Shown here one piece after another: positions 14,590 to 58,844 of a stretch of 64,000 nucleotides of DNA. The position numbers and the translations under genes were made by a program. The DNA lies in NCBI GenBank assembly GCA_012845835.1, contig JABAKD010000009.1:4998904-5062903 (forward strand). The letters run 5' to 3'. Each line of letters starts with the position of its first letter. Position 1 is the stretch's first letter. This DNA is from Undaria pinnatifida (Eukaryota > Sar > Phaeophyceae > Laminariales > Alariaceae). Under the pieces are notes generated by a model. That model saw only the letters and a list, made by a program, of their open reading frames with translations, had not been told where the DNA came from and did not search any database.

Positions 14590-17440
14590 CTCAAATAAAC
14601 GGGGGGATGCGCGGAGAAAGGGCCGTGAAAAGGGGGGGGGGGGGGGCGTGTACGGCAACGAGACCGTACACGACCCGGCCGGGGGGGAGCACGGCAACGG
14701 GGCCGCGCAAAGAAAACGGGGGGGTGTGTGCGGCAACGGGGCCGCACACAATCAGGTAGGGAACGAACGTGGCGACGGGGCCGCGCAGGGCGACGGCGGC
14801 CAGGCCGCGGGTTTTAGCAAATGGGGTTGCGAGGCAAAGGGGCCACGCAAAACGTGTGGGGGGTGGTGTGCGGTAACGGGACCGTACACGACCCGGCCTG
14901 GGGGAAGCGCGGCAACGGGGCCGCGCAAATAAAGGGGGGGTGCGTATGCAGCAACGGGGCTGCACACGACGATCAGTCCGGGAGGGGACGCGGCAACGGG
15001 GCCGCGAAATGAAAGGGGGTGGGAGTGGGCGGCGATGGGGCCGTACACGACCAAGGGGGGCGGGAACGCGGCAACGGGGCCGCGCGAGAAAAAAAGGGGG
15101 GGGGGCGTGGGCGGCAACGGGGCCGTTCACGACCTGGTCGGGGGGCGCGACTACGGGGCCGCGCAAGAAAGGGGGGGTGTGCGGCAACGGGGCCGTACAC
15201 GACCTTGCCGGGGGTGGGATGCGGCAACGGGGCCGTTCACGACCTGGTCGGGGGGCGCGGCTACGGGGCCGCGCAAGAAAGGGGGGGTGTGCGGCAACGG
15301 GGCCGTACACGACCGTGTCGGGGGTGGGATGCGGCAACAGGGCCGTACACGACCTTGTCCGGGGTGGGATGCGGCAACGGGGCCGTTCACGACCTGGTCG
15401 GGGGGCGCAGCTACGGGGCCGCGCAAGAAAGGGGGGGTGTGCGGCAACGGCGCCGTACACGACCGTGTCGGGGGTGGGATGCGGCAACAGGGCCGTACAC
15501 GACCTTGTCCGGGGTGGGATGCGGCAACGGGGCCGTTCACGACCTGGTCGGGGGGCGCAGCTACGGGGCCGCGCAAGAAAGAGGGGGTGTGCGGCAACGG
15601 GGCCGTACACGACCTTATCGGGGGTGGGATGCGGCAACGGGGCCGTTCACGACCTGGTCGGGGGGCGCGGCTACGGGGCCGCGCAAGAAAGGGGGGGTGT
15701 GCGGCAACGGGGCCGCACACGACCTTGCCGGGGGTGGGATGCGGCAACGGGGCCGTGCAAGAAAGGGGGGGGTGTGCGGCAACCGGGCCGTACACGACCT
15801 TGTCTGGGGTGGGATGCGGCAACGGGGCCGTTCACGACCTGGTCGGGGGGCGCGGCTACGGGGGCGCGCAAGAAAGGGGGGGGGTGCGGCAACGGGGCCG
15901 TGCAAGAAAGGGGAAGGCGTGCGACAACGGGGTCACGCACGAACAGGTGGGGTGGGGACACGGCAACGGGGCCGAGCAAAAAAGGGGGGGGGGGGAAGGT
16001 GAGCAACGGGCCGTACACGACAAAGCGGGGGAAGGAACGCGGAAACGGGGCCGCGTAAACTAGGGGGGGGGGAAGGGGCGGCAACGGGACTGTACACGAC
16101 CTGGTCGGGGTTGGGACGCGGCAGCGGGGCCGCGCAAGAAGGGGTGAAAGGTGTGCGGCAGCGTGGCCGTACTTCACCAGGATGGGGGGGGGGGGGGCGG
16201 GGGCAACGGGGCCGCTCAAAGAAGGGGGGGGGCGGGAGGGGGGGGGTAGGGGCTGCAACAGGGTCGTACACGAATAAGCCGCCCGGGGGCGTGAACGTGG
16301 CATCGTGGGGGGGAAGGGGGGTGCAACAACGGGGTCGTACACGACCAGGCACGGGAGATAATGCGGCAAGGAGGCCGCACAAATAAAGGGGGGGTGGGGG
16401 TGCGGTAACGGGGCTGTACACAACCAGGCTTGGGGGGGGGCGCGGAAAGGGGACCGCGCAAACAGGGGGGGGGGGGGGGGGGAGGGGGGGGCAACGGGGT
16501 CGTTGACGACTTTGCCGGGGGGGGGGCGCACGACCTGGTCAGGGAGGGGACGAAGCAACGGGGCCGCGCAAAAAGGAGGGAGAGGTGTGCGGCAGCGGGG
16601 CCATACACGACCTTGTCGGGAGTAGGTCGTGAAAACGGGGCCGCGCAAGAAAGGGGGGGATATATGCGGCAACGGGGCCGTTCACGACCTGGTCAACGGG
16701 CGTGGCAACGGAGACGCGCAAGAAGTGGGGGAGGTGCGCGGCAACGGGGCCGTACACGAGCTTGTCGGGGGTGGGATGCGGTAATGGGGCCGCGCAAGAA
16801 GGGGGGAGAGGCGTGCGACAACGGGGTCATGCACGACCAGACGGGGGGGGGCACGGCAAAGGGGCCGCGCAAACAAAGGGGGTGGAGGGGGGGGTGCGGT
16901 AACGGGCCGTACACGACCAAGCGGGGGAAGGAACGCGGAAACGGGGCCGCGAAAACTAGGAAGGGGGGGGCGGCAGCGGGGCCGTACACGATCTGGTCGG
17001 GGGGGGGGGGACGCGGCAAGGGGCCGCGCAAGGAGGGGGAAGAGGTGTGCGGCAGGGTGGCCGTACACGACCAGGGGGGGGCGGGGACGCGGCAACGGGG
17101 CCGTACACGACACGGCAGGGGGGGGATGTGACAACGAACCGCGCAAGAAGGGGACGAGGGGGGGGGTGCGGAAACTGGGACGTACACGACCAGACGAGGG
17201 GAGAACGCGGCAGAGGGGCCACACAGAACGGGGAACGACGAGGCAAAGAAAAGGGGGCTGAGGGGCGACGAGGGAGAACGGCCAGGACGGGGAAAGGGCG
17301 GAGAAAGGGGTCGCGCAAAGAGAAAGGGGGGGAGTGAGCGGCAACGGGACCGCACACGCTCATGGAAGATGAGCCTGCGGCAACGGGGCCGAAGGGGTGA
17401 GGCGTGGAAAGGGAGCCATTTGGGAGAGAGGAGGGAAAGA
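14590..17440. repeat. G-rich minisatellite, core CGGCAACGGGGCCG
   Basis: Several dozen imperfect copies of GCGGCAACGGGGCCGT followed by ACACGACC or TCACGACC, a short variable linker and a G run. In the most regular part (15100-15900) 53-58-bp units combine into higher-order units of about 118 and 171 bp. Because the repeat lacks stop codons in most phases, several overlapping frames of 200-370 codons stay open on both strands. Their products are repetitive Gly/Arg or Pro/Arg strings and I do not count them as genes. The array lies inside the DIRS-like element. Confidence 0.9.
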
Positions 17441-39778: not shown

Positions 39779-42700
39779 TTGCCTTCCGAGTACTTCGGTG
39801 CTTTCATGGCTTCTTCTGCGGAGAAGTCGTCGCTCGCTCCTTTTCGCTCCGACGGATCGTCCATCCTGATGTTAGTGGATAGCGGAGCGACGGACAATTA
39901 CCTAGATACTGCGCTTACGCCTGGCGTGCGGGCTTACATGCGTGACATTGAAGACCTTCGGATCCCGCTCCCGATCATTGCCGCTGGGCAACACGTTCTT
40001 CACGGCGTTACGACGGGGGTTCTTTTCGGCACGGTCGTCGACGACAGCGGCCACGACAGGCAAGTTTCCTTCCGTGTCGTCTTAGTACCGGGGCTGGGGA
40101 CCAACCTCTTCTCCGTCACCGCTGCGATGTCGAATGGAGTGGCCTCCCTCTTCTATCCGGACAACCCCAGGCTGGAGTCGGGGGACGTAGTCGTCCCGAC
40201 GAAATCCGAGGAGTGGATGACACCGGCAAGATCACTTGCTCCATCACCGTGAAGCTCGGCGCTGGGCATGGCGGTCGGCAGACCCTCGGGGAAGCTCCTG
40301 ACGGACTTGCCTTGCGGGTGGAGACTGCTCGTCTCTGGCACCGGCGCATGGGGCACATCAACAGCAAGAGCTTGGATGTGTTGAGGAAGGAGGCGGCCAA
40401 CGGCATCGATTACACCGGCGACGTGCAGGACTGCAGTGCGTGCCCTCTTGGTAAGAGCTCTCAAAAGCCGCACACAAAGCACGCCGTTTAGGGCGTTTTA
40501 CGCGCCTTTCAGATCGTATTCGTCGATACCTTTGGTGCCTTCACGCCTATCGCGTTGGGCGGCTTCGAATACGCCGCCAAGTTTGTCGATCAACACACCA
40601 AGTGGAAGGAGGTCGTCCTCATGAAGGATAAGACTTGCTCGACTGACGCTCTCGAGTTGTTCAACAAGGGGACCGTCATCCCCCGCAGCGAGCGCATCCA
40701 CGTGCTTCGTGCGGATAAGGGAACCGAGTTTTCGAGCGCGGCCTACCGGCAGTACTGCCTGGACATCGGCATCCAGCTACAATTTGCATCGCCGAACATC
40801 CCCCAGCAGATCGGAGCGAATGAGCGTGCAGGCAGGACGGTCATAAACATCGTGCGTTGCATGCTTGCTGATTCTACGCTGCCGAGCCTTCTTTGGGGAG
40901 AACTGATGCACACGGCGGTCTACCTGAGCAACCGGACTCCTCATGCAGCCTTGCACAATGGGACGCCGTACAAGGCGCTCTACGGCAAGGACGCGCACCT
41001 TGGACACTTTCGGATGGTCGGGGCACAGGCGTTTGTGCATGAAGAGACGCACACCAAGAAGTTGGAAAGCCGTGCGTGGGAAGGACGGTTGGTGGGCTAC
41101 CGCCTGGACAGCAAAATCCTACCGTCTCTACAACGCTCAGACGAGACGGGTGCGGGAGAGTCGCAACGTTATCTTAATTGAAACGACTCCCGCGCCGCCT
41201 TCGTTGGACGAGCGTGGTTTTGACGACGGGGAGTTCATTTACGCCGACCAGAACGACATGATCCGAGATGTGCGCAACTACACCACCAACCATCCGGTCG
41301 ATGCGCTTTCTCCCAATCATGCCGTCGGGGACCCGTCTGTTCTCGAGCTTCTCGAGGACATCTCCACCGTTAACAACCGTGACCTCGGGCTCAGCTCCGC
41401 TGACCCTTCTCCTGCCGACGAGGATGCGCCTGCAGACGATAGCCTTGCCTCGCCTGGAGAAGTCAGCCCTCCTGAGTCGGGTGACGGTGCACCTTCACCT
41501 GCCGCATCACCTTCCGGTCCTGCTCCGGCCGGTTCATCATCTGGTCCTGCGTCGCCGCCTGGTACGTCGGGTACTGGTTCTGCTCCAGTTGGTGCTGCAT
41601 CGCGGGGTCGTTCCGCGTGTGGGCGTGGTTCATCTCGTGGTGGGTGTGACACCCGCGGTGGCTCTTCGCGTGGTGTATCTGCGCGGGGAGGGACCGGGAC
41701 GCGTGGTGGACGTGGTTCGGTGAGTGGGCGTGGTTCTCGTGGTGGTCGCGGCTTCATGTCAGCCCCTCCTGACACCAGGATTACCCGGGCGATATCGCGC
41801 GTGCCCAACCAGAAGACCCTCAGCGAGCTTCGTCGGCTTTCGTAGGCGTTTCCCGCGATGGGGGAGTTTCCTGACGTCGCGCACAGGGACGCCACATCGG
41901 GATTAACGGAATACGCATACGCCGTAGGGGCAGTGCAACCAGACGTTCCTCGCACCATCCAGGAAGCACGGGCCTCACCGGACGCAGCGAAATGGAACGC
42001 AGCTGCCGAACGCGAGATGAAAAGCCTCAACGACCGCAAGGTCTACAAACTCGTCCCGCGCTCAGCCGTCCCTCCGGGAAGGAAGCGCATCAAGTCCAAT
42101 TGGGTGTTCAAACGCAAGGCCGACGGCTCCTTCAAGGGACGTGTCGTGGCCCGGGGCTGGAACCAAGTTCCCGGACTCGACTGCGGCAGCACCTACGCTC
42201 CGGTGTGCAGGATCCAGAGCGTGCGAATGGTGGCGTGCATCACCGTGGAGTTCAACCTCATCTTCGACCAGATGGATGTTTCTACCGCTTTCCTCTACGC
42301 GGACATCCAAAAACAAGTGTTTGTTGAACAACCACCCGGTTTCGAGGTCAAGGACAAGGATGGAGGTGACATGGTAATGCAGCTGAAGAAGAGGCTCTAC
42401 GGACTTGCTCAAATCCCAGGCAACTGGTTCAACACCATCCATCCCGTGCTTGTCGAGATTGGCTTCGTCGCACTCAAGTCAGACCCGTGCGTGTATTTGT
42501 ACGATCACAATGGGGCCAAGATCTACCTGACCCTCTACGTCGATGACCCTCTCCTGGCCGGCAACGACTCTAACGCCATTTCGATGGTGAAAGGGAAGTT
42601 GCAAAAGCGCTTCAAAATGACCGACATGGGGGAAGCATCTCTCGTACTTGTACTCGGAATAGAAATCAAGAAGGATCGCGAGGCAGGTACCTTGACTATT

Positions 42701-43580
42701 TCCCAAGAGGCATACTGCAAATCGATCCTTAAACGGTTCGGGATGTCGAACTGCAAGCCAACTAGTACATCTGGTTACGGCTCCGAAATCTCGAACAACC
42801 AGCCCGAGGACACACTTCTCAACGAGGAGGAGACGCGCAAGTAGCGTCGGATTGCTCATGTACATTGCGCAAGTGCTGAGGTACTGACATCATGTATGCG
42901 ACAGGCCAACTGGCTCGCCCGATGGCGAAACCCAGCAAGGTGCACATGGTGGCGTCAAAGCATAATCTTCGCTATCTAGCAGGGACGACCAACTTCAGCA
43001 TCACCTACAAGAAAGGTCGTTTTAAGCTCGCGACCTCCTCGGACTCGAACTGGGCAAACCACCCTGACAACAGGAAGTCGACCTCAAGCTACGTGACGAT
43101 GCTGGCAAACGCTCCGATAAGCTGCAGGTCGGGGCTGCAAGGTCTGACTGCGATGTCCACCGTGGAAGCGGAGCTGGTCGCGTCCGCCCTGGCGATGAAG
43201 GAAGCAGTGTTTTGCTCAAACATGCTGAGGGAGCTTGGATTCGGGAAGGAGGTTGCACAAATGCCTGTGTACAGCGACAACACGGCTACCCTATATGCAT
43301 TGGGGAACCGGTCCTTCAGCTAGAGGACCAAGCACATCGCATTGCACTTTTTCCTTATCCGAGAACTGGTAACGGAGGGGAGGATCTCCATCCATTACGT
43401 CCCGACGGAGGACAGCCTCGCCGACATCGGTACAAAGCACTTCAACAAGCACAGGTTCAAGCACCTTATGGACCTCATCAACAAGTTCGAAGTCAACAAG
43501 TTCACCACCGTCGAATTTAAAGGAAATGAAAAATTTGTTTGTTTGACTCTGTTTGGAATTAGCTTACACTTTTGATTTAT
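39779..43580 (+). pseudogene. Copia pol region (PR-IN-RT-RH)
   Basis: The protease active site is MLVDSGATDNYLD near 39870. The pre-integrase zinc region is LWHRRMGHIN...CSACPLGK near 40335-40460. The integrase core includes VLRADKGTEFSS and PQQIGANERAGR near 40710-40830. The RT has VWKRKADG-like and YVDDPLLAGND motifs near 42535-42560, and RNase H has MSTVEAEL and YSDNTATL near 43155-43290, ending DSLADIGTKHF. Between integrase and RT (about 41575-41765) is an unusually long Arg-Gly-rich tract. Broken several times. Function in an intact relative is processing, reverse transcription and integration of the element. Confidence 0.85.
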
Positions 43581-45330: not shown

Positions 45331-45339
45331 TTGAAGGAC

Positions 45340-47170
45340 GGGGCGATATATTGCCGAGGAGGGTGCTATGCTTCAGGGGAAGCTGATATTTTTCAGGGAA
45401 CGATGATATATTTCAGGGGAACGCCAAAATTTCGAGGTGGGGTATCACCCGTGATACACCCGTGATACGGTGTATCAGGGGGAGGGGGCTGTAGCACCCT
45501 TGATACAGAGAGTCGGGGGAAGGGAGCTATATCGCCGTTGATATCCCCGTTGATAGTATGCAAGGAGCTATCTCCCCCTGAAATATATCACCCCCCCTCA
45601 AATATACGGCTATATCACCGTTGATACAGCGTATCGGAGGGGGGGGGGGTGTCACCCCTGATACAGTATATCGGGGGGCGGGGGGTATATCACCGTTGAG
45701 CGTATACTACCACCGGCTGAAATATATCATCCCCCATGAAGTATATCACACCCCGCGGAAATATATCATCCTTGACACAGTGTATCGGGGTGTGCTATAT
45801 CACCCCTGATGCAGTATATCAGCAGGGGGGTGGGATATATCACCGTTGATAGTAATTTACCAGCAGACCGGGTGAAATATCATCCACCCCTGAAATATAT
45901 CACCCCCCCCTGATAAATCCGACTATTTTACCCTTCATACAGTGTTTCCGGGGGGGGGCTATATCACCCCTGATACAGTACATCAGGGAGGGGGGGGTAT
46001 ATCACCATTGAAAGTATACTACCACCCGCTGAAATGTATTATCCCCCCCTAAAATATATCATCCCCCCTTATACATGCGACTATATCCCCCTTGATACAG
46101 TGTATCGGGGGGGGCTGTATTGCCCCTGATACAGTGTATCGTAAGGGCGGTGGGCTATATCACCGTTGGTAGTATACCACCACCCGCTGAAATATATTAT
46201 CCCCCCCTGAAATATATAATCCCTCTTTCAAAAATCCGATTATATCACCCTTGATACAGTGTATCGGGGGAGGCTATATCACCCCTGATACAGTATATCA
46301 GGGGGCGGGGGGATATATCGCCATTGTTACTATACTACCAGCCGTAGGAATATGTCATCCCTCCCTGATATATATATCACGCCCCCCTGATAAATCCGAC
46401 CATATCATAAATCCGACTATATCACCCTTGATTCGGTGTATCGGGGGGCTATATCATCCCTGATACAGTATATCTGTGGGGCGACGGGCTATATCACCGT
46501 TATTTGTATACAATTTATATTAATAACACCGGCTGAAATACATAATCCCCCCCTAAAATACATCATCCCCCCCTGAAATATGTCACCCCCCCCTGATAAA
46601 TCTGACTATATCACCCCCCCTTTAACTATATCATCTCTCCGTGAAATATATCATCACCCCCGGATAAATCCGGCCATATCCCCTTTGATACAGTGTATCA
46701 GGGGGGGGGGCTTTACCACCTCTTGATACAGTGTATTGGGGGGGGGGCTTTATCATCCTTTGATACAGTTCATCGGGGGGGGTGGTATATCACCGGCCGA
46801 GCTATATCACCCCCCCCGTAAGTATATCATCTCTCCCTGAAGTACATCACCCCCCCCTGATAAATCCGGCTATATCACCCCTTGATACAGTGTATCGGGG
46901 GGGGCGTCTATATCACCGTTTATTTTATTCTAACACCTGCTCAAATAAGTCATCGCCAGAGAGGAATGATATAGTTCAGTGGGGGATGATATATTTCGGG
47001 GGGGCTGATATAATTCAAGGGGGGTTGATATATTTCACGGGGTGATGATATATTTCAGGGGGGGGGGATACATTTCCGAGGGGATGATATATTTCAGGGG
47101 GGGGTGATACATTTCAGGGGGGGGTGACATATTTCAGGGGGGGTGATATAATTCAGGGGAGGATGATATA
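45340..47170. repeat. Array of hairpin-forming palindromes (GATACAGTGTATC / GATATATTTCAGGGG)
   Basis: About 18 copies of GATACAGT[GA]TATC and variants, most flanked by C runs on the left and G runs on the right, e.g. CCCCTGATACAGTATATCAG (46282-46301) continuing GGG, a 9-bp perfect stem with a 5-nt loop. Between them run units of CCCCCCTGAAATATATCA. Spacing gives a higher-order period of about 150-180 bp. At both outer edges (45345-45440 and 46970-47170) the unit appears in the opposite orientation (GATGATATATTTCAGGGG), so the array as a whole is roughly inverted about its middle. No coding sequence. Confidence 0.9.
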
Positions 47171-48836
47171 TTGAAGCGGGCATCGGATATTGCGGAAGGG
47201 ATCCCATAAATCGGGGGCCACCATAAATCGTAACAGATGTTGGGTTTCGTATTATAAGGTTGGCGTTTTATTATCGGATAGCCAGGAAATAGATCGGAAG
47301 CACACGCTTCGGATTTCAGAAGCCATCCGGGTCTCTGGTAGAGTCGAATAAAGCTACGTCTCTGCGAAGGCTAAAAAGGTGAGTTCTCTCCGAGGACCTG
47401 TTCAATTGGCAGACCTGCAGGGGACACTCTGTGTCCCCGCCCAGTATTCTCATATACCAGGTGTTGATCCATCTTTTAAACGTATATGACATCTACGAAA
47501 ATAGCTACCTGATATACACGTGTTTTATCCCAAGGCAGTGTTTATGCATGTTAAACATGGCACTGCTTGCTGTTTGTCGTACTGCTGGTGCTGCCGCTGC
47601 TGCAGCTAGCTGTTGTTGAATTTACACGCACATAACAGTTGTGGAGCGTTCCTGCTGCTGTGGTGTGTGAGCTGTACTTTCCTACGGCTTACCGTTTGCC
47701 GTTGCACTGCCGCTTCTGCTGTTTTAGTTCTTTTATATTTTTTAAAAGGTGTGTGTTGTTTTCCTCGCGTTTGCATTTGACCCTCGATGTGCATACGGTA
47801 TTACGTTACTCCATTTTTGCTTCTTCGCTTTTTCGTCAATGTACCGGGTACCGGTCAAACTTGAACGTACACTATTAATGCATGCTACACTGGAGTGGAT
47901 ACTGTTTGCTGTTTGTCACGCTGACGGTGCTGCCGCTGCTGCAGCCTGCGGTTTGCAGTTGTTGAATTTACACTCTCGTGAAAGTTGTACGGCGTTGCTG
48001 CTGATGTTACTGTATGTGTGTATGTCGTATGTCTACGGCTGTGGTTGTTTGTCGTTGGATTCCCGCTGCTGCTGCTTGCTGTTGTTGTAAATGCGTGTAT
48101 AAATATGTTGGTCATGTCGTCTCAGCGATCAAGAGGCCTTACTAAGACCAGGTTTTGAGCCGTCTTCGAGATGACACGAGCTTAAGTGTACTTTTCGGAA
48201 TGCAGTTTCCTGGACGTGCCACACCATGCTCGGCCCTGCCGGCTCTGCCTGGGGCGGCCTCGGCCGTTGTCCCTTCGTGCCGTGACAGACCCTGAAAAGC
48301 CAATTTTTTTAGGCAGAATGTCAAGTGCGTATGTATGCATTATCGTACGCGTGTAAGACGCAAAATGTTGTCCCAGTAGTATTCGAACAACAGTAGCAGC
48401 TTGAAGGGTAGCCATGAACGTCTACTATTCGTTCGTCGCGAGTCTCGGTGAATTCATTATTTCTTCAAGTTGGATTATCTGTTTTCTTCCCTTTTGGGGT
48501 CGAGCCTCGGTGTGTACAGTATCCGATATTAAACTATTTTCTACCTGGTGTTTGCTTTCCCCTGTTAATTTTTCTGTGTGTACCGGCTCAGAGCAAATTG
48601 AAAATATTATTTTACTGGAGATGGCGCTTAATGCTGTCGATCTGCCGCAGCTGCCGCTCCTGCTGCCGTTAAATTACACGTACTCAAGAGTTGTGCGGGG
48701 GCTTCTGCTACTTCTGTTGTTGTTCGTCATCGTTTGTCGGATGACAAATTTTATTGCTGCGGTTTAGTGCGCCTGATTCCAGTGTTAACTTCCCCTGGCT
48801 CAAACACGATTTATTTGAATGTTTCCCTTGGCAGTG
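47171..48836. other. No gene; degenerate CTG/GCTGC-rich repeats
   Basis: Three diverged copies of a block with GCTTGCTGTTTGTC, GGTGCTGCCGCTGCTGCAGC and TTGTTGAATTTACAC occur near 47560-47740, 47905-48090 and (more diverged) 48600-48740. They share a TTRAATTTACAC-like segment after a CTG-rich run. No frame has a recognisable domain. Confidence 0.5.
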
Positions 48837-49217
48837 TGTAATAGAGTGTCGGTATAGCGGGCAATAGATTCGGTAAGATAGTCCGCAGAGTTACGGTCTA
48901 TTGGCGACAAGAAGATTCTCTTAGAACGGAATATTCTTAGTGAAGCGGATAACCCGTAGAGAATAGCTAGCTTATACCACAAGAACGTTCTCGGTAAGGG
49001 AATGTCCTCCTCTGGACAAAATAGGTAGAAGTAAGCGCGTTAAGCGCTCTTGGGAATATAGAACACCTAGGTGAATGTTCCTTGTACGTTCCATATGTAA
49101 AGGTCAAGAAGAGAGAACAGCAGCAATGCTGGAGGGTGAAGCGAACTCTGTGAGCCTCACCCCACCCCCATGCTCTCACTCCTTCCCCTTTCCTGTCTCC
49201 TTCGAGCTTCTCATAGC
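48837..49217 (+). repeat. 5' LTR of Ty3/gypsy element
   Basis: 381 bp, TGTAATAGAGTGTCGG to CGAGCTTCTCATAGC, near-identical to 57719-58098. The exact right end is set by where the two copies diverge. The first in-frame ATG of the long frame (49075) lies inside this LTR. Confidence 0.9.
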
Positions 49218-52200
49218 GCGATCACAGTCGACCAGGACATGCTCTGAGCACCCTGCCCCGTCATCCTCGCCGGCTTCACGCATTGCGTGGACTCGGGCCA
49301 CAGGATCTGCATGCCCTAGCGAGTACAGCCCTGCTCTCCAAACGCCTGAAGACAGGACCTCTCAGGGTATCCCCGCCCAGCGTGCGCGCCACCGCGTGGA
49401 CCCTCCCGGTACCTCGGCTTTGCCGAGCAATTCCCCCGCGAACTCGGGCGTTCAAGTCAGCACCGCCCGATCGGACCTGACTCTACCCCCGACAACGCCA
49501 CACGGCGACATTACCAACAATCGCCGACACCCACCCCTGCAACACCCTTCCGACGACTCGCCCTCGCCAGCACATGACACCGCGGACACCCCGGATTCTT
49601 TCCATTTCTTCTGGAACTCCTCGTCCGTCTTCTCACAGTGGTACCTGTGCGACATCGAGAACGAAAGCGTCACGTACAACTGCGCCGAACAGATGATGAT
49701 GGCGCAGAAGGCTGCGCTCTTCGGTGACACCGCGACAGAGCGCCTCATCCGAACCACCCCCGATCCCTTCGACCAAAAATCTCTTGGACGCACCGTGTCC
49801 GGCTTCGACCAGGAGTGTTGGGAGCGACACCGCTACGACATCGTCCTCAACACCAATTTCTGCAAGTTCAGCCAAAACCCGGACCTACAACAAGCGCTCG
49901 AGGCGACTGGCGAGAAGCACATCGCTGAGGCCAGCCCGTACGACCTCGTCTGGGGCATCGGCTATAGGGCCGACCACCCGTTTGCCTGCGAAAGGGCGCG
50001 CTGGCGCGGTCGGAACCTGCTAGGCCGGGTACTTATGGACGTACGCGAACGCCTTCGCTCAAGCCTCCACGCCACAAGCGCCCTCGCCCCCTGCTCCGCT
50101 GAGCCAACACCCACCACCACCGACGCCAGCCGGGTCTTCCCCACCGCAGATGGCATCCACGAGACAAGCCCCCCCCCCCTTCGACAAACGCCGAGTACCC
50201 CGCTTGGACTGCTTCTGCCACCCTCCACCCCGGACGCCTTGCCCATCAGCCACTTCGCTCAGGTCTCCGCCGTCGACGGCGCAACCAACCTATACCCCGC
50301 TACTACCGCGCCGACGATACCAGAACATGGACCGTGCCATACAAGCGGCATCCTAACTGTCGACGACGCGTCGTTCACGACCGAAGTACTAGTCCACAGC
50401 GGCCCTACCGCCGCCAAACGCTGCAAACTCGTGGCGCTTCTCGACACAGGCTCCCCCCAGTCGTTCATCACCGCCGCCGCCGTGGAACAACTGAAGGCGT
50501 CCCGGTCAGCAACGGATGAGTGCGAGCGACAGAACTCACCTCGTTCATGGGGAGGTTTCGGAACCTCGACTCCCCTCTCCACCTCCGTTTCCATCCGCTT
50601 AAGCATCCAGTTTAAGCACCACCAAACCCCCACCGCCGCCCTGGCGGTATGGGCTTGCGTCGTTCCTGCAGGAACTATGCAGCATCCCATCCTCTTGGGG
50701 CGAGATAGCTGGATGCGCTTCGAGCGACGCTCGTATACCACGCTCCCGCGGCAGCCCCAGCTACCACACCAGCCCCCCCAACCGACCCTGGGCGAACTTT
50801 CCCTGCACCACCACGACACCAACAGGGCCTCCGCCTTCATTCCCGACGACCGATCCACCGACGACGTCTACCACCTCCGGTTCGCCGGCACGAAAATTAT
50901 TTCGCTTTCCTCCTCGCCGAAGCTCATCAAGGTCAACCTCGTGCGCCAGTCAGGCGCCCCGGCGTTTACCGGGCAGTACATGGTCAACATGCTCCCCCGC
51001 GAGGACCTTCTCACCGACAAGGAAATTTTCGTCTCCGACGGACACCAGACTATCCCATTGTCAGGATCAACCGATCTCGAACCGGGCGACCTCCTCGGAA
51101 CCTCCCTCTCCCCGCTGGTGCAAGTACCACTAGCCACCCTTGGGAACCCTTCTTTAGACCCCCCAGCCCCTCCACCTACGCCAGGCGTACATGCCCTACA
51201 CGACAACATCCCTGTGGCCAGCGAGAACCACCCACCAGCCAATCCCCATGACCCACCGACAGCCCCGTGCCCAGACCTCCTTGCACGCCTCGACACCGAT
51301 CAACGAACTAGCTTCCTCAACCTCTGGGACCGTCTGCCGCCGCATCTGCGCGACATCATCTTCGACCTCCACGGTTCCGGATGGTCCCCATCGGTGATCG
51401 ACAGCCTGGGAGATGTCCTCTGCGAGTTTCCGGACGTCTTCTCCACCTCCAAGACCGACTTCGGCTCGTGCTCATTGATGCCGTTCAAGATCACCGTACC
51501 TCCGGACAGCGAACCAGTTACCTCCCGCCCGTACAGGATCAACCCCATCCTTGCCAAAACGGCCGACGCCGTCCTCGACCAGTACCTGGCCGCCGGCTTG
51601 ATTCAGCATTCGACCTCACCTTACTCCAGCCCCATGGTCGCCATCACGAAGAAGGACGGCGGTGTCCGCATCACCATCAACTATAAAAAACTGAACGCCA
51701 TCAGCTCCCTCGGACAGCTTCCCATCCCCCGCGTTGACGAGGTCCTCGATTCTTTAGGAAAAGGGGGCATCTTCTCCCTCTTCGACTTGATCTCCTCGTT
51801 CCACCAAATCACCATCGACAAGGATACCATCCCTTTGACGGCGTTTTGCACGCCAGACCGGCTCTTCGAGTGGCTTGTGATGCCGCAAGGCAGCAGTGCC
51901 TCCCCCGGTTGGTTCGTTAAGGTTATTAACGAGGTCATCAAAGGCTTGGAACGCGTCGCCGCGTACCTCGACGACATCATCGTCTTCGACCCCGACCCCA
52001 CCGACCACGTCGCCAACATCCGAGCCCTTTTTGGTCGCCTCCGTAAGCACCGCCTCAAACTTTCTCCCTCCAAGGCCAAAATTGGCGCCACAACCGCCGA
52101 CTTCCTAGGGCACACCATCTCCGCTGGCGGCTACAGCCCCAACTCCGAACAGGTCGCCGCCCTCACCAAAATGCCCATGCCCACCGACAAGAAACAGGTG

Positions 52201-53844
52201 CGGTCACTCCTAGGAGGTATCAACTACTACGGCAAGTTCCTACCAAACCTTTCCAGACGCCTTCGCCCCTTCAACGCTCTACTCAAGCAGGGCACCACCT
52301 TCGGCTTCACCCCCGCCATGGAAGCCACCATCCGCGCAATCCTCCACGAACTTACCGAGCCACCGATCCTCGTCTACCCCGACTGGGACGCCGTCGCCGA
52401 CGACTCCCGCCCTTTCCGCCTCTACTGCGACGCTAGCATCGACGGCTTTGGAGCGACTCTCGAGCAGGAACAACTTGACGGCTCCGTCCGCCCGATAATC
52501 TACATCAGCCGCGCCACTCTGGACTCCGAACGTTCATGGACACCCCTCAACCTCGAGGCCGGCAGCATCGTTTGGGCGATCAAGCGACTACGCGGGCATC
52601 TGTGGTCCACCCGTTTCGAAATTTATTCGGACCACAAGGCGCTCGAAAACATCGCCAAGGTTGGTGAGCACAACGCTCGCGTCCGGCGCTGGCTCGAGTT
52701 GCTTTCGGCCTACAACTACACACTGAAGTACCGCAAAGGTACGGCCAACGGCAACGCCGATTTCCTTTCACGCCTACCACAACCAGCCACCGACGCCGAC
52801 CGCACCGGACGCAACCGCCTCACTGGCCCGGACACTGTTGGCATCTACCTCATCCGCCCCTGCGGCTTCGTGCCGAACGAGCCGCCTACACCGGGTATCG
52901 GCTTGGGTGGGCTCGTGTCCCCCCCTTCAAGACCCATTCCAACAATCCAGCCTCTTCCCTTCACCGCCGACGACTATACCGACTTCCGCCTGCTGGGATC
53001 ACGCATAGAGCACCACGGCATCCCCAACACCTTCGTCGGGCCTATTTCGACCCGCGACTCCACCGCCAGGCCGCTCGTCAGCTCCGAGAATGCCGCCGTG
53101 AACACCGGCGCTCCTCCTGGTTCGGCTTCCAGGCCACCCGTCGTCTCCCCGCTGTCCACCATTGGCGCCACGGAACCACCGCCTTCTGGTCTGATCTCTT
53201 CACGGACCCGCCATCGCGCCGCCGCCGCCGCGGGAAACCCCCGACCTACCGCAGACTATGGGTTCGGACGCCGTCCGAAACCAACCGTATCCAGAAGATC
53301 TACATCTACCCGTCGACCGCACACGCCCCCGGCCGGGGCCCAACCAAGGCTTCCCCCGACCACAACGCCTCCAGCTGCCGTCCCCACGCCGCCCGCGTCA
53401 CCCGCACCAACCGCACCAAGACCGGCCCCTCCTTCGACGACTTCTCCGACGTCCCGATCAACACCGCCACTTCTGCTCCCGGATCCTGTTGTCGACCTAA
53501 ACATCGACCCCCACCTCCTCGCCCGCGTTGAGCGCTACACCTACAGAGACTGGGCGCGCGAACAACGTGGGCGCGCGAACAACGCGCAGAGCCCGTGTGC
53601 TACGCCGCCATCCGCTTCCTATCGTTGGACTCCCCTTCTCCGCCGCCGGCTGACCTCTTGGATTCCATCCCCTCGGCCCAGCGCCCGCTACTCTCCGACG
53701 TCCTCGCACTTGCCGCCAAAGGCAGACTCCACCGCACTGACGACGAAACAGCCCTCCTGGTCCAACGTCCACCCACATCTCAACCCGGGAACAGCCTACC
53801 GCCACCCGCACCCTATCCCCCCCGCGTCTACGTTCCAATGCTGA
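49075..53844 (+). CDS. Gypsy polyprotein 1: NADAR - protease - RT - RNase H
   Basis: 1589 residues. Residues 1-175 are Ser/Pro/Thr-rich. Residues about 176-327 are a NADAR (YbiA-like) domain: FHFFW (176-180), YNCAEQMMMAQKA around E205, KFSQNPDL, EASPYDLVWGIG (285-296), GRNLLGRVLMDVR (ending 324). Known NADAR proteins cleave N-glycosidic bonds of riboflavin intermediates (YbiA) or reverse ADP-ribosylation of DNA guanine. The aspartic protease motif LLDTGS is at 455-460. RT follows with SPYSSPMVAI (848-857) and YLDDIIVF (964-971). RNase H has LYCDAS (1116-1121), YSDHKAL (1184-1190) and GNADFLSRLP. The last ~350 residues are a Pro/Thr-rich linker. No Gag matrix/capsid or zinc knuckle is recognisable; NADAR occupies that place. 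I took the first ATG, but a start downstream of the LTR is equally possible. Confidence 0.85.
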   Translation: MFLVRSICKGQEERTAAMLEGEANSVSLTPPPCSHSFPFPVSFELLIARSQSTRTCSEHPAPSSSPASRIAWTRATGSACPSEYSPALQTPEDRTSQGIPAQRARHRVDPPGTSALPSNSPANSGVQVSTARSDLTLPPTTPHGDITNNRRHPPLQHPSDDSPSPAHDTADTPDSFHFFWNSSSVFSQWYLCDIENESVTYNCAEQMMMAQKAALFGDTATERLIRTTPDPFDQKSLGRTVSGFDQECWERHRYDIVLNTNFCKFSQNPDLQQALEATGEKHIAEASPYDLVWGIGYRADHPFACERARWRGRNLLGRVLMDVRERLRSSLHATSALAPCSAEPTPTTTDASRVFPTADGIHETSPPPLRQTPSTPLGLLLPPSTPDALPISHFAQVSAVDGATNLYPATTAPTIPEHGPCHTSGILTVDDASFTTEVLVHSGPTAAKRCKLVALLDTGSPQSFITAAAVEQLKASRSATDECERQNSPRSWGGFGTSTPLSTSVSIRLSIQFKHHQTPTAALAVWACVVPAGTMQHPILLGRDSWMRFERRSYTTLPRQPQLPHQPPQPTLGELSLHHHDTNRASAFIPDDRSTDDVYHLRFAGTKIISLSSSPKLIKVNLVRQSGAPAFTGQYMVNMLPREDLLTDKEIFVSDGHQTIPLSGSTDLEPGDLLGTSLSPLVQVPLATLGNPSLDPPAPPPTPGVHALHDNIPVASENHPPANPHDPPTAPCPDLLARLDTDQRTSFLNLWDRLPPHLRDIIFDLHGSGWSPSVIDSLGDVLCEFPDVFSTSKTDFGSCSLMPFKITVPPDSEPVTSRPYRINPILAKTADAVLDQYLAAGLIQHSTSPYSSPMVAITKKDGGVRITINYKKLNAISSLGQLPIPRVDEVLDSLGKGGIFSLFDLISSFHQITIDKDTIPLTAFCTPDRLFEWLVMPQGSSASPGWFVKVINEVIKGLERVAAYLDDIIVFDPDPTDHVANIRALFGRLRKHRLKLSPSKAKIGATTADFLGHTISAGGYSPNSEQVAALTKMPMPTDKKQVRSLLGGINYYGKFLPNLSRRLRPFNALLKQGTTFGFTPAMEATIRAILHELTEPPILVYPDWDAVADDSRPFRLYCDASIDGFGATLEQEQLDGSVRPIIYISRATLDSERSWTPLNLEAGSIVWAIKRLRGHLWSTRFEIYSDHKALENIAKVGEHNARVRRWLELLSAYNYTLKYRKGTANGNADFLSRLPQPATDADRTGRNRLTGPDTVGIYLIRPCGFVPNEPPTPGIGLGGLVSPPSRPIPTIQPLPFTADDYTDFRLLGSRIEHHGIPNTFVGPISTRDSTARPLVSSENAAVNTGAPPGSASRPPVVSPLSTIGATEPPPSGLISSRTRHRAAAAAGNPRPTADYGFGRRPKPTVSRRSTSTRRPHTPPAGAQPRLPPTTTPPAAVPTPPASPAPTAPRPAPPSTTSPTSRSTPPLLLPDPVVDLNIDPHLLARVERYTYRDWAREQRGRANNAQSPCATPPSASYRWTPLLRRRLTSWIPSPRPSARYSPTSSHLPPKADSTALTTKQPSWSNVHPHLNPGTAYRHPHPIPPASTFQC

Positions 53845-55784
53845 TGCGCCCCTGGGTGCTGAACACATGCCACGCCGACACCTCCCTACACCTTGGAGTT
53901 ACCCGGACGGTTCGCATGCTGGCACGGTTTTACTGGTGGATCGGCATGGACGCCTCCGCCCGCTGGTGGATCCGCCGCTGCCTTCACTGCCAGGCGCGCA
54001 AGACCTCCCGACACACCATTCGCTGGCCGACCCTCTCACTTCCTTTACCCAACGGCCCTGGCATCACCGTCAGCGTCGACTACTTCGGGCCCCTACCTCT
54101 CACACCGCGCGGGAACGTGCACATCCTTTTTTTCACCGACCGCTTCAGCCGCCGGGCCGACATGTTCGCTGTATCGGCAGAGAACTTCACGGCCGCCGGA
54201 ACTGCCGACATCCTGCTCAACGAGTACATTCCTCTCTGGGGGTGCCCGGTGACGCTCCTCTCCGACAATGGTCAACAATTCACCTCCAAGCTGGCAACCA
54301 TCGTCTACGACCGCGTCGGCATCCGCAAGGTCAACACCAGCGCCTATCACCCCTGCACCAACGGCGGCGTCGAGCGGGTCAACCATGTACTGGCCCAGAT
54401 GCTCTCCATGGTTGGCAACGAGAAGCAAACCGACTGGGACGTACTACTGCCGCACGTGTCGGCGGCCTACAACAACTCTGTCAACGCCGCCACCGGACTG
54501 GCGCCCAACGAGATCCACATCGGCCGCCTACCACGCCTCCCGCTCTCGGTCTTCGAACCCGAAAACATCGGCGGTCACCAGAGCTTGGATCGCGACCACC
54601 TAGTCTACATCAACCTTGCCACCGACCGGCAACAACGCGCCTACTCCCTCGTCCGAGAGCTCCACCGCCTTACCGTCTCGCGTCTACAACGCCGCAACGC
54701 GCCCATCATGGCCGTCCTCCTCGCCTCCCCCCCTTTCTCCGTTGGCGGCTGGGCCTGGGTCTACAACTCCGCCTCCACTATCCGCCAGGGTGCCAAGAAG
54801 GGCACCGACGCAACCGTTTTGAAAACGAAACTCTCGTTGAACTGGAACGGGCCTTTCAAGATCCTCGCGGTGGGCCCGACTGCAGCCTCCGACACCCCCG
54901 ACAACCGGCCGCTACAAGACAAGCTGCTTTTCCTCGATCTACCTTCAGACCTTCCGGGACGGGACTCCAAACCACGCGTCTCCGTCAAACGGTGCAAGCC
55001 CTGCCACAACCCCGACGACACCAGCGACATACCCAAGCACCTACCAGCGGACCTCACAACATACGTCCTCACAGCTTCCGCTGCCAAGTCCCCCCCCTAC
55101 CACGTCACCCTCGACAACGTCACACCACCACCGGAGCGCCTTGAGGTTGAGCAGATCACCGGCCACCAACTCGTACGCGGCCGCGGCGGAGTCATCGCTG
55201 TCCTATACGAGACCCACTGGACCGGACTCCTCAGCCCCTCGTGGGAACGCGAGCTCGACCTCCAACACTTCAGGCGCCATATTTTACTCTACTGGTCCGG
55301 GAAGCCGACACAACACCGTCAGACCAACCGCCTCTACCGCCAGATGCGCATCGGCGCCGCACACCGCGAGCTCTCCCGATCTCAAGGCCAACTCTTCCTC
55401 GCCCCCGGCTACACCCTGGTCCCCCGCGACCTTTGGCTTCGCAATTTCAGAAACTCCACCCTCCCCTTCGGGGCACACGTTTGGTACAAGGCACGTGACG
55501 GCCTCTGGTGGCTAGGCAAGATCGCTCACCGCGCGCCACCGGACGCCTCTTCGCGAACCCCCCCGGACCCTTCCCCGGGTAGTTCCTACATCATCAGGTT
55601 CCTAGACGACCCCGGCCCGATCAAGATCGACCTCCAGCCAGCTCGCTACACTACCGCCCGGAACGCCGTCTCCGGATCGTGGTGCCTTCAACGCCATGGG
55701 CATGGGAGCCTATCCCGTGGGGTGCTACGGAATTCTGATGCTTCCCGCGTTGCCCCTACCGTTCCAACTCCCCCCATTGGTTAG
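53595..55784 (+). CDS. Gypsy polyprotein 2: integrase with chromodomain-like and Tudor-like C-terminus
   Basis: 729 residues in a different frame, overlapping the end of polyprotein 1. The zinc-binding HHCC domain is H93-x5-H99-x29-C129-x2-C132. The catalytic triad is D162 (VDYFGPLP), D224 (SDNGQQF) and E260 (GGVERVNH), the 35-residue spacing typical of retroviral-type integrases. Residues about 516-562 (YETHWTGLLSPSWERELDLQ) resemble a chromodomain: hydrophobic strand, W, SWE, then a helix. Residues about 626-690 (GAHVWYKARDGLWWLGKIAH, then YIIRFLDDPGP) resemble a Tudor/PWWP-type barrel. Such modules in chromoviral integrases are known to steer integration to modified chromatin. The integrase call is firm; the two C-terminal calls rest on pattern only. 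Confidence 0.85.
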   Translation: MCYAAIRFLSLDSPSPPPADLLDSIPSAQRPLLSDVLALAAKGRLHRTDDETALLVQRPPTSQPGNSLPPPAPYPPRVYVPMLMRPWVLNTCHADTSLHLGVTRTVRMLARFYWWIGMDASARWWIRRCLHCQARKTSRHTIRWPTLSLPLPNGPGITVSVDYFGPLPLTPRGNVHILFFTDRFSRRADMFAVSAENFTAAGTADILLNEYIPLWGCPVTLLSDNGQQFTSKLATIVYDRVGIRKVNTSAYHPCTNGGVERVNHVLAQMLSMVGNEKQTDWDVLLPHVSAAYNNSVNAATGLAPNEIHIGRLPRLPLSVFEPENIGGHQSLDRDHLVYINLATDRQQRAYSLVRELHRLTVSRLQRRNAPIMAVLLASPPFSVGGWAWVYNSASTIRQGAKKGTDATVLKTKLSLNWNGPFKILAVGPTAASDTPDNRPLQDKLLFLDLPSDLPGRDSKPRVSVKRCKPCHNPDDTSDIPKHLPADLTTYVLTASAAKSPPYHVTLDNVTPPPERLEVEQITGHQLVRGRGGVIAVLYETHWTGLLSPSWERELDLQHFRRHILLYWSGKPTQHRQTNRLYRQMRIGAAHRELSRSQGQLFLAPGYTLVPRDLWLRNFRNSTLPFGAHVWYKARDGLWWLGKIAHRAPPDASSRTPPDPSPGSSYIIRFLDDPGPIKIDLQPARYTTARNAVSGSWCLQRHGHGSLSRGVLRNSDASRVAPTVPTPPIG

Positions 55785-57718: not shown

Positions 57719-58098
57719 TGTAATAGAGTGTCGGTATAGCGGGCAATAGATTCGGTAAGATAGTCCGCAGAGTTACGGTCTATTGGCCACAAGAAGATTC
57801 TCTTAAACGGAATATTCTTAGTGAAGCGGATAACCCGTAGAGAATAGCTAGCTTATACCACAAGAACGTTCTCGGTAAGGGAATGTCCTCCTCTGGACAA
57901 AATAGGTAGAAGTAAGCGCGTTAAGCGCTCTTGGGAATATAGAACACCTAGGAGAACGTTCCTTGTACGTTCCATAGGTAAAGGTCAAGAAGAGAGCACA
58001 GCAGCAATGCTGGAGGGTGAAGCGAACTCTGTGAGCCTCACCCCACCCCCATGCTCTCACTCCTTCCCCTTTCCTGTCTCCTTCGAGCTTCTCATAGC
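57719..58098 (+). repeat. 3' LTR of Ty3/gypsy element
   Basis: 380 bp, about 98% identical to 48837-49217. Confidence 0.9.
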
Positions 58099-58844
58099 TC
58101 AACGCCAGTAATAAGAAATCGTCAAAGAAGAACCGATGCTGTCTTCAAGCGAAGCTGATACCCCTGCGTCCTTTCCCTCCCAGCATCCGGCACCACGACC
58201 CCTTCACAGGTTCTGTCGCATGTACAGCCCTGACTTACCTATAATCCTATACTCAACACATGCCATTCTTCCTCGAAAATTGCGAGCATGCGCGAAGCCT
58301 AGGCGGGGGGCAGCCCGCCGTGGTGAAGTCCCCCTGGCATTTTATAACATCATTTCAACAACGTCGGCTGTGAGTTCGACGAATGTAGGGTTGATGCTCA
58401 TCTTTGCGAGCTCCGGCCGCCCTTTTTTAAAAAGTTTTCATCGTCAGAACCTAATATATGACGACATTGTATAAAAATACTTATCGGGCATGACCTAAGT
58501 GGTATATCCACGAGTAACCTCTTACTAAATGATACATTATTAAAACAGCAGTAGGGTACCGGCCTGCTGTCGTTGGCGAATTTCGGGAGAGTTTTGTTGC
58601 GGAGTTTCACGGGTTCCATCAATACACGTACTCTCATACTAACAACACTGCTTCCATCACAAATCGGGTACGTGCTGCAGTCTTCCATCGGGGGGGATCA
58701 CGGATCAGCGTCACCGTGTTTGTCAAGTGAACTCTACAGTCTTCCGTGCTGGGGGGGGGGGGCGGGGGGTTGTGGACCAGCGTCCCCTTATTTGTACAAC
58801 ACTGTTTAGAAAATCAGGCCCCTATTATTATATTAAAAAAATGA
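58099..58844. other. No gene recognised
   Basis: Right flank of the gypsy element. 58370-58415 (GTGAGTTCGACGAATGTAGG, then CTCATCTTTGCGAGCT) repeats a piece seen near 29388-29432. A G-rich tract lies at 58750-58769. Confidence 0.4.

Follow-up and report, generated by a model that had tools for sequence, protein, structure and literature searches.

A NADAR domain within the Pol of multicopy Ty3/gypsy retrotransposons of the kelp Undaria pinnatifida

The stretch of DNA analyzed here (the window) comprises 64,000 nucleotides (nt) from the brown alga Undaria pinnatifida (GenBank assembly GCA_012845835.1, contig JABAKD010000009.1, positions 4,998,904 to 5,062,903) and holds a Ty3/gypsy retrotransposon copy of 9,372 bases, whose Pol carries a domain of the NADAR (YbiA-like) type. 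Between the long terminal repeats (LTRs) of this copy we found the order protease (PR), reverse transcriptase (RT), RNase H, and integrase (Table 1). The protease was recognized by its DTG motif, as no Pfam protease family matched the 1589-amino-acid (aa) frame at E values up to 1; the integrase lies in a second frame (53595-55784), separate from the NADAR-RT frame and adjoining a 17-nt tandem duplication.

Pfam placed NADAR (PF08719) at residues 178-328 of the 1589-aa frame (49075-53844), and the match was complete (profile positions 1-163 of 163; 165.9 bits against a cutoff of 35.1); RVT_1 (residues 857-1015), RT_RNaseH (residues 1109-1213), and RT_RNaseH_2 follow downstream in the same frame. 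The NCBIfam model for riboflavin biosynthesis intermediates N-glycosidase, TIGR02464, scored 148.1 on the domain (cutoff, 73.7). Among PDB sequences, it matched the Phytophthora NADAR 8bau (E = 1.3e-17) and, more weakly, Escherichia coli YbiA 2b3w (E = 2.2e-05), and its AlphaFold2 model was confident. We consider the identification of this part of the gypsy Pol as NADAR to be practically certain. A first-pass annotation, made from the sequence without database searches, had read a whole NADAR domain in one uninterrupted frame with protease, RT, and RNase H; both the completeness of the domain and the common open frame were borne out, the protease being represented there by its LLDTGSP motif.

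We searched the genome (511,146,479 bases in 68 contigs) for further copies. At least 150 NADAR matches were found (the best 150 of 1454 first-look candidates), and all 150 scored over the Pfam cutoff; among these 150 listed matches, five lie in open frames of 2371 aa, belonging to the window's own family (family A), and nine in open frames of 2473 aa, belonging to a sister family (family B). Open frames of 2302-2473 aa were found via the NADAR search and hence are NADAR-bearing by selection. Searching with RT also yielded at least 150 matches (the best 150 of 1582 candidates): of these 150 RT copies, at least 89 are preceded on the same strand by a NADAR no more than 4 kb away, at a median distance of 1995 nt, and for RT copies of ≥88% identity the count is at least 27 of 38. 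Because the RT and NADAR figures each come from the best 150 matches, this pairing is an undercount. The first-pass annotation had pointed to gypsy copies with NADAR at the same place as something to look for, and they proved numerous: the ≥150 scored genome matches rule out a one-off insertion.

Eleven family copies (RT identity, ≥88%) had no listed NADAR, and we inspected the upstream sequence of 10 of these: two have a degraded NADAR (L039 and L041), and eight have none. In five of the eight (L032, L033, L040, L034, and L035), interior sequence from past NADAR comes soon after an LTR, resuming at the equivalent of window position 50060 in L034 and 51650 in L035; the other three (L036-L038) are truncated within pol, and the stretch examined showed no LTR. 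Family copies lacking the domain, which the first-pass annotation had named as a sign of a one-off insertion, do therefore occur (8 of the 10 inspected), but these copies are internally deleted or truncated.

Six open copies hold sequence upstream of the equivalent of position 49217 that is absent from the window, which is why we describe the window copy as lacking gag and having a shortened 5′ LTR. In L073, the upstream region includes an open stretch of 898 aa with a CCHC knuckle, followed by pol in another frame; L074, L075, L076, and L078 share this region at 98-99%, and L077 shares its last 1157 nt only. The L073 stretch had no match in Pfam, so that we call it gag by its knuckle and its place. 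Full copies have a gag-like frame with the knuckle CLNCNGTDHSMKTC, then pol with NADAR near its N terminus; both L073 and L079 have a knuckle in their gag-like frames, and family B is also knuckle-bearing. In Pol, NADAR follows the end of Gag and precedes the protease, a location shared by many copies in both families. The separate gag-like frame of L073, common to four more of the six copies, rules out the gag-less layout as the natural state of the family. Two of the six copies have paired LTRs (494 of 495 and 493 of 494 positions identical), and both copies in which two ends were read are bounded by 4-bp target repeats (TAAT and GTAT). As for other LTRs among the six, the match of L087 to the 5′ LTR covered only 92 nt, and three copies showed no 5′ LTR within the stretch read (a shorter stretch for L077). 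One full copy (C19) is 15,782 bases long.

The window copy is a recombinant, defective though of fairly recent origin: it has no gag, the end of its 5′ LTR is missing, and it is frame-shifted. The listed start of its open reading frame (49075) falls within the 5′ LTR; pol of the full copies that were read extends farther upstream, behind the separate gag-like frame. We found no zinc knuckle in the forward frames of the window copy and no matching target-site repeat at its ends (AGTG versus GGTT). Its 3′ LTR runs to 58208 and not just to about 58100.

Table 1. Features of the gypsy copy, in window coordinates
Feature	Position	Strand	Basis
Truncated 5′ LTR (381 nt), corresponding to the first part of the ~494-nt LTR	48837..49217	+	375/381 identical to 3′ LTR; joins the N-terminal Pol linker directly
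Proline-rich N-terminal Pol linker	49218..49605	+	86-99% identity in 23 copies (L042-L064); pN/pS 1.08
NADAR (YbiA-type) domain	49606..50058	+	PF08719, E = 1.2e-48; AlphaFold2 mean pLDDT (predicted local distance difference test) 97.3
Glu equivalent to Phytophthora NADAR E43	49687..49689	+	Alignment
Lys equivalent to Phytophthora NADAR K50	49708..49710	+	Alignment
Glu equivalent to E125, marker of the YbiA subfamily	49927..49929	+	Alignment; criterion from PMC11543638, PMC11125620
Aspartic protease motif LLDTGSP	50437..50457	+	Motif position; surrounding segment 55% identical in sister family
RT domain, YLDD at about 51964	51643..52119	+	PF00078, E = 5.2e-26
RNase H	52399..52713	+	PF17917, E = 6e-27
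Perfect 17-nt tandem duplication at the pol frame change	53551..53584	+	Tandem Repeats Finder, 2.0 copies, 100%
Integrase, H2C2 zinc finger and rve core	53832..54353	+	PF17921, E = 9.1e-15; PF00665, E = 1.8e-08
Probable C-terminal chromodomain	55146..55298	+	Model: three strands, then helix; PF00385 in 4/53 relatives, best E = 5e-06
Probable Tudor-like domain behind the chromodomain	55470..55670	+	Strands in model; weak profile match, E = 0.016; Agenet in 1/53 relatives
Complete 3′ LTR, TG...CA	57719..58208	+	Match to 3′ ends of six open copies reaches 58208-58209; full LTR ~494 nt in two copies

We examined the active site by alignment in 24 family A and 30 family B copies, with residue roles as given for the Phytophthora NADAR (PMC11543638; here and below, published work is cited for the parts of it available to us). 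The window domain keeps the equivalents of E43, K50, G78, R79, W89, R93, E125, D130, and W133 of the Phytophthora nicotianae protein (PDB 8bau), which differs in being a stand-alone eukaryotic protein. These residues are retained in nearly all copies (family A of 24 and family B of 30, respectively: E43, 21 and 30; K50, 23 and 29; G78, 22 and 30; R79, 24 and 30; W89, 23 and 30; E125, 24 and 29; D130, 24 and 30; W133, 23 and 30); the R93 site is R in all family A copies and K in all family B copies, as in YbiA. The catalytic residue of the last strand is Glu in the YbiA subfamily, Asp in the BC4488 group, and His in phages (PMC11543638, PMC11125620). The Glu at the E125 position thus places the window domain in the YbiA subfamily and not in the DarT1-linked group, whose Asp (BC4488 group) does not occur in the last strand of the window domain. 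E. coli YbiA (2b3w) belongs to the same subfamily and has this catalytic Glu in common with the window NADAR, but is a stand-alone enzyme of the riboflavin pathway. Catalysis might be incidental, with the NADAR fold serving Pol in nucleic acid binding or in assembly: the domain does sit beside gag, and linker and NADAR were inherited together in the copies read. We think this very unlikely, given that the catalytic residues are kept in nearly all examined copies of two families with 48% NADAR identity.

Comparison of synonymous with nonsynonymous change between natural copies, a check named in the first-pass annotation, indicated constraint on the domain. We pooled the ratio of nonsynonymous to synonymous polymorphism (pN/pS) over natural family A copies, 24 per segment before copies with indels, stops, or short matches were dropped (NADAR, 6; RT, 1; PR, 7; linker before NADAR, 4; linker after NADAR, 6; PR-RT segment, 9); the 95% ranges, from 2000 codon resamples, are approximate because the copies share ancestry. 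NADAR gave 0.43 (0.29-0.68; 18 copies), RT 0.41 (0.27-0.63; 23 copies), the protease segment 0.29 (0.14-0.57; 17 copies), and the segment between PR and RT 0.51 (15 copies). The linker before NADAR was near-neutral (1.08; 0.61-2.03; 20 copies), and the linker after it gave 0.69 (0.38-1.46; 18 copies); the NADAR ratio reached the value of the preceding linker in 0.85% of the 2000 resamples. For family B, represented by its 30 best-scoring NADAR matches, the pooled NADAR ratio was 0.34 (28 of 30 copies). Mutations after insertion drive all of these ratios toward 1. Synonymous sites were saturated between families A and B, leaving no usable dN/dS for that comparison, so we measured the ratio within family A. 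NADAR varies under a constraint about as strong as that on RT, and appears to have been kept by selection.

The nearest proteins in the protein collection were 15 fragments from ENA contigs (66-92% identity); these probably come from other copies or other brown algae, because several share the linker. The remainder of the 55 protein hits had 31-55% identity, and many carry bacterial names, including Streptomyces and Micromonospora. Family A grouped with five of the ENA-contig fragments in a supported clade of the tree (100/98), and the family B NADAR fell elsewhere, among bacterial-type proteins. Since the NADARs of families A and B do not group and each lies among bacterial-type YbiA proteins, the two families might have taken up the domain twice, from different bacteria. 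A grouping of A with B was not rejected, however (approximately unbiased test, p-AU = 0.233), and divergence of NADAR between the families (48% identity) is near that of PR (55%) and gag (42-46%), with the C terminus at 62% and RT at 79%: this comparison leaves two captures unsupported and, to our minds, highly improbable. As NADAR, PR, gag, and the C terminus have all diverged between A and B, it is simpler to suppose one capture, after which these parts descended together. Relatives of the domain were confirmed for none of five pattern matches in viral contigs and for one (29% identity) of 33 in prokaryote genome contigs. The protein collection held three other long NADAR proteins, none of them a retroelement by its listed domains. 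The long proteins P0002 (1022 aa) and P0003 (972 aa) combine NADAR with a second domain, PF13671, and by their listed domains are not retroelements.

Beyond the integrase, the C terminus of Pol probably carries a chromodomain and a Tudor-like domain in tandem, as suggested by a structure model of this part (mean pLDDT, 82.4) with a chromodomain-like unit followed by Tudor-like strands. Weak profile matches point the same way: to chains of PHD finger protein 19 (E = 0.016), which we take to be its Tudor domain, and of M-phase phosphoprotein 8 (E = 0.28), presumably its chromodomain. A Pfam search for chromodomain and Agenet families gave no match in the window protein itself; among 53 relatives, PF00385 matched four and Agenet one. 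The C-terminal part (55146-55670) had 504 protein matches (best 120 listed), compared to 15 close matches (≥66%) for NADAR.

Elsewhere in the window we observed a Copia-type element (40555-42844), with a piece of integrase bearing an SH3-like domain followed by RVT_2 (E = 1e-57); arrays of a ~20-nt unit of the type TGATATATTTCAGGGGGGG, plus inverted counterparts (45335-47182); and a GC-rich region (14591-17355), perhaps a minisatellite, in which strand skew is strong and repetitive frames overlap on both strands. An Rfam scan of the window gave no match.

The first-pass annotation knew of no described LTR element with this architecture, but there is a precedent: one gypsy lineage of Ectocarpus, with Gypsy-12_Ec32 as an example, has NADAR at the N terminus of Pol (Dinatale et al. 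2025, PMC12477816). The Undaria element is a further member of this already described arrangement, here with many copies. Like Gypsy-12_Ec32, it has a brown-algal host, NADAR in the N-terminal region of Pol, and NADAR relatives that are mostly bacterial: outside Ectocarpus, blastp with the Ectocarpus NADAR found almost only bacteria (PMC12477816). Gypsy-12_Ec32 is also cited to exemplify a chromodomain that follows integrase (PMC12477816), a likeness that is only probable for the Undaria family; the Undaria family has, in addition, a probable Tudor-like domain behind the chromodomain, whereas the available parts of PMC12477816 name Tudor only for Gypsy-10_Ec32. The host differs, and the comparison is by description and not letter by letter; Undaria is not named in the main text of PMC12477816. 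Tx1 long interspersed nuclear elements (LINEs) of the oyster Crassostrea gigas carry NADAR as well; these retrotransposons are non-LTR, with the domain in ORF1 and reported as divergent (PMC12477816). Literature searches on NADAR, YbiA, and DUF1768, with supplements, figures, and most subscription papers outside their scope, revealed, among the papers listed, no other one on a NADAR-bearing element.

The first-pass annotation had suggested that NADAR could protect the nucleic acids of the element; this role is conjectural here, as it is in the work on Ectocarpus, where a role in processing of RNA intermediates was proposed (PMC12477816). In Undaria, NADAR would be made as part of Pol and would share the virus-like particle with RT and integrase; there, as a glycosidase or ADP-ribosyl hydrolase, it could free the RNA or single-stranded cDNA of the element of ADP-ribose linked to guanine, or of a comparable N-glycosidic adduct, and thereby keep reverse transcription unblocked. 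We favor such a Pol-linked hydrolase tentatively, with slightly less than even confidence. A nucleic-acid-cleaning hydrolase is the most direct reading because RNA and single-stranded DNA are both forms through which a retroelement passes. NADARs act on guanine ADP-ribose in DNA, including single-stranded DNA (PMC11543638, PMC11125620), and those tested removed ADP-ribose from guanosine in RNA, though not from phosphate ends (PMC11833690).

Several observations weigh against a nucleic-acid-cleaning hydrolase. D86, the adenosine ribose contact in the Phytophthora NADAR (PMC11543638), is replaced by Q in the window (Q246) and by A in family B; of the 24 family A copies, 23 have Q, and D occurs in no copy of either family. 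NADARs from outside DarT operons showed no efficient antitoxin action against DarT1 (PMC11125620), and the substrates of YbiA are riboflavin intermediates (PMC11543638). The copies used for the selection estimates and catalytic counts were drawn from the best or listed NADAR matches, which biases both toward well-kept domains. L032, L033, and L040, at three places, have a common deletion junction, at which the LTR is followed by the equivalent of window position 50274, so that gag and NADAR are gone and PR and RT are kept; NADAR-less L032, L033, and L034 retain open frames of 1851, 1873, and 1908 aa, respectively. That the same junction recurs at three places argues for multiplication, presumably in trans, of a derivative lacking both gag and NADAR, and the L032/L033/L040 type is probably such a multiplying, nonautonomous derivative. 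NADAR is thus not needed in cis for spread; because deletion copies without it also multiplied, it can probably be supplied in trans.

The riboflavin connection also suggests a metabolic enzyme, an N-glycosidase that acts on riboflavin intermediates, on ADP-ribose, or on small molecules derived from NAD and so adjusts the metabolism or signaling of the host to the benefit of the element, with no direct action on nucleic acid. TIGR02464 matches the domain at twice its cutoff, and E. coli YbiA has activity on riboflavin intermediates (PMC11543638); however, an enzyme for small molecules needs no fusion to Pol between gag and protease, and related enzymes whose active site is the same have guanine-linked ADP-ribose of both DNA and RNA as a substrate (PMC11543638, PMC11125620, PMC11833690), and we consider the metabolic role unlikely. 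NADAR could instead oppose ADP-ribosylation of proteins or of host silencing marks as a counter-defense, its substrates being host or element proteins. An enzyme of the YbiA subfamily is the antitoxin to the ADP-ribosyltransferase toxin YarT (PMC11125620), and the domain is constrained with its active site kept, but no protein-directed NADAR activity is reported in the parts of the literature covered; this explanation seems to us quite improbable. Taking the nucleic-acid-cleaning hydrolase further, the Pol-borne NADAR may be an ADP-ribose eraser that counters host silencing by guanine ADP-ribosylation of retroelement RNA or cDNA, a proposal we regard as rather doubtful.

Undaria is a kelp of another order than Ectocarpus, and our findings extend a one-species report to it. 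They also correct the first reading of this locus: the gypsy copy in the window is a remnant without gag, and its architecture had already been described. Beyond the main-text parts of PMC12477816, they add variation of the domain relative to an internal near-neutral control, retention of the catalytic residues across two families with 48% NADAR identity, and the place of NADAR relative to gag in full copies. If NADAR does act as an eraser of guanine ADP-ribose laid down by the host, it would reveal an ADP-ribosylation-based defense against retroelements in brown algae. Our findings make nucleic-acid ADP-ribosylation in these algae a subject worth testing.
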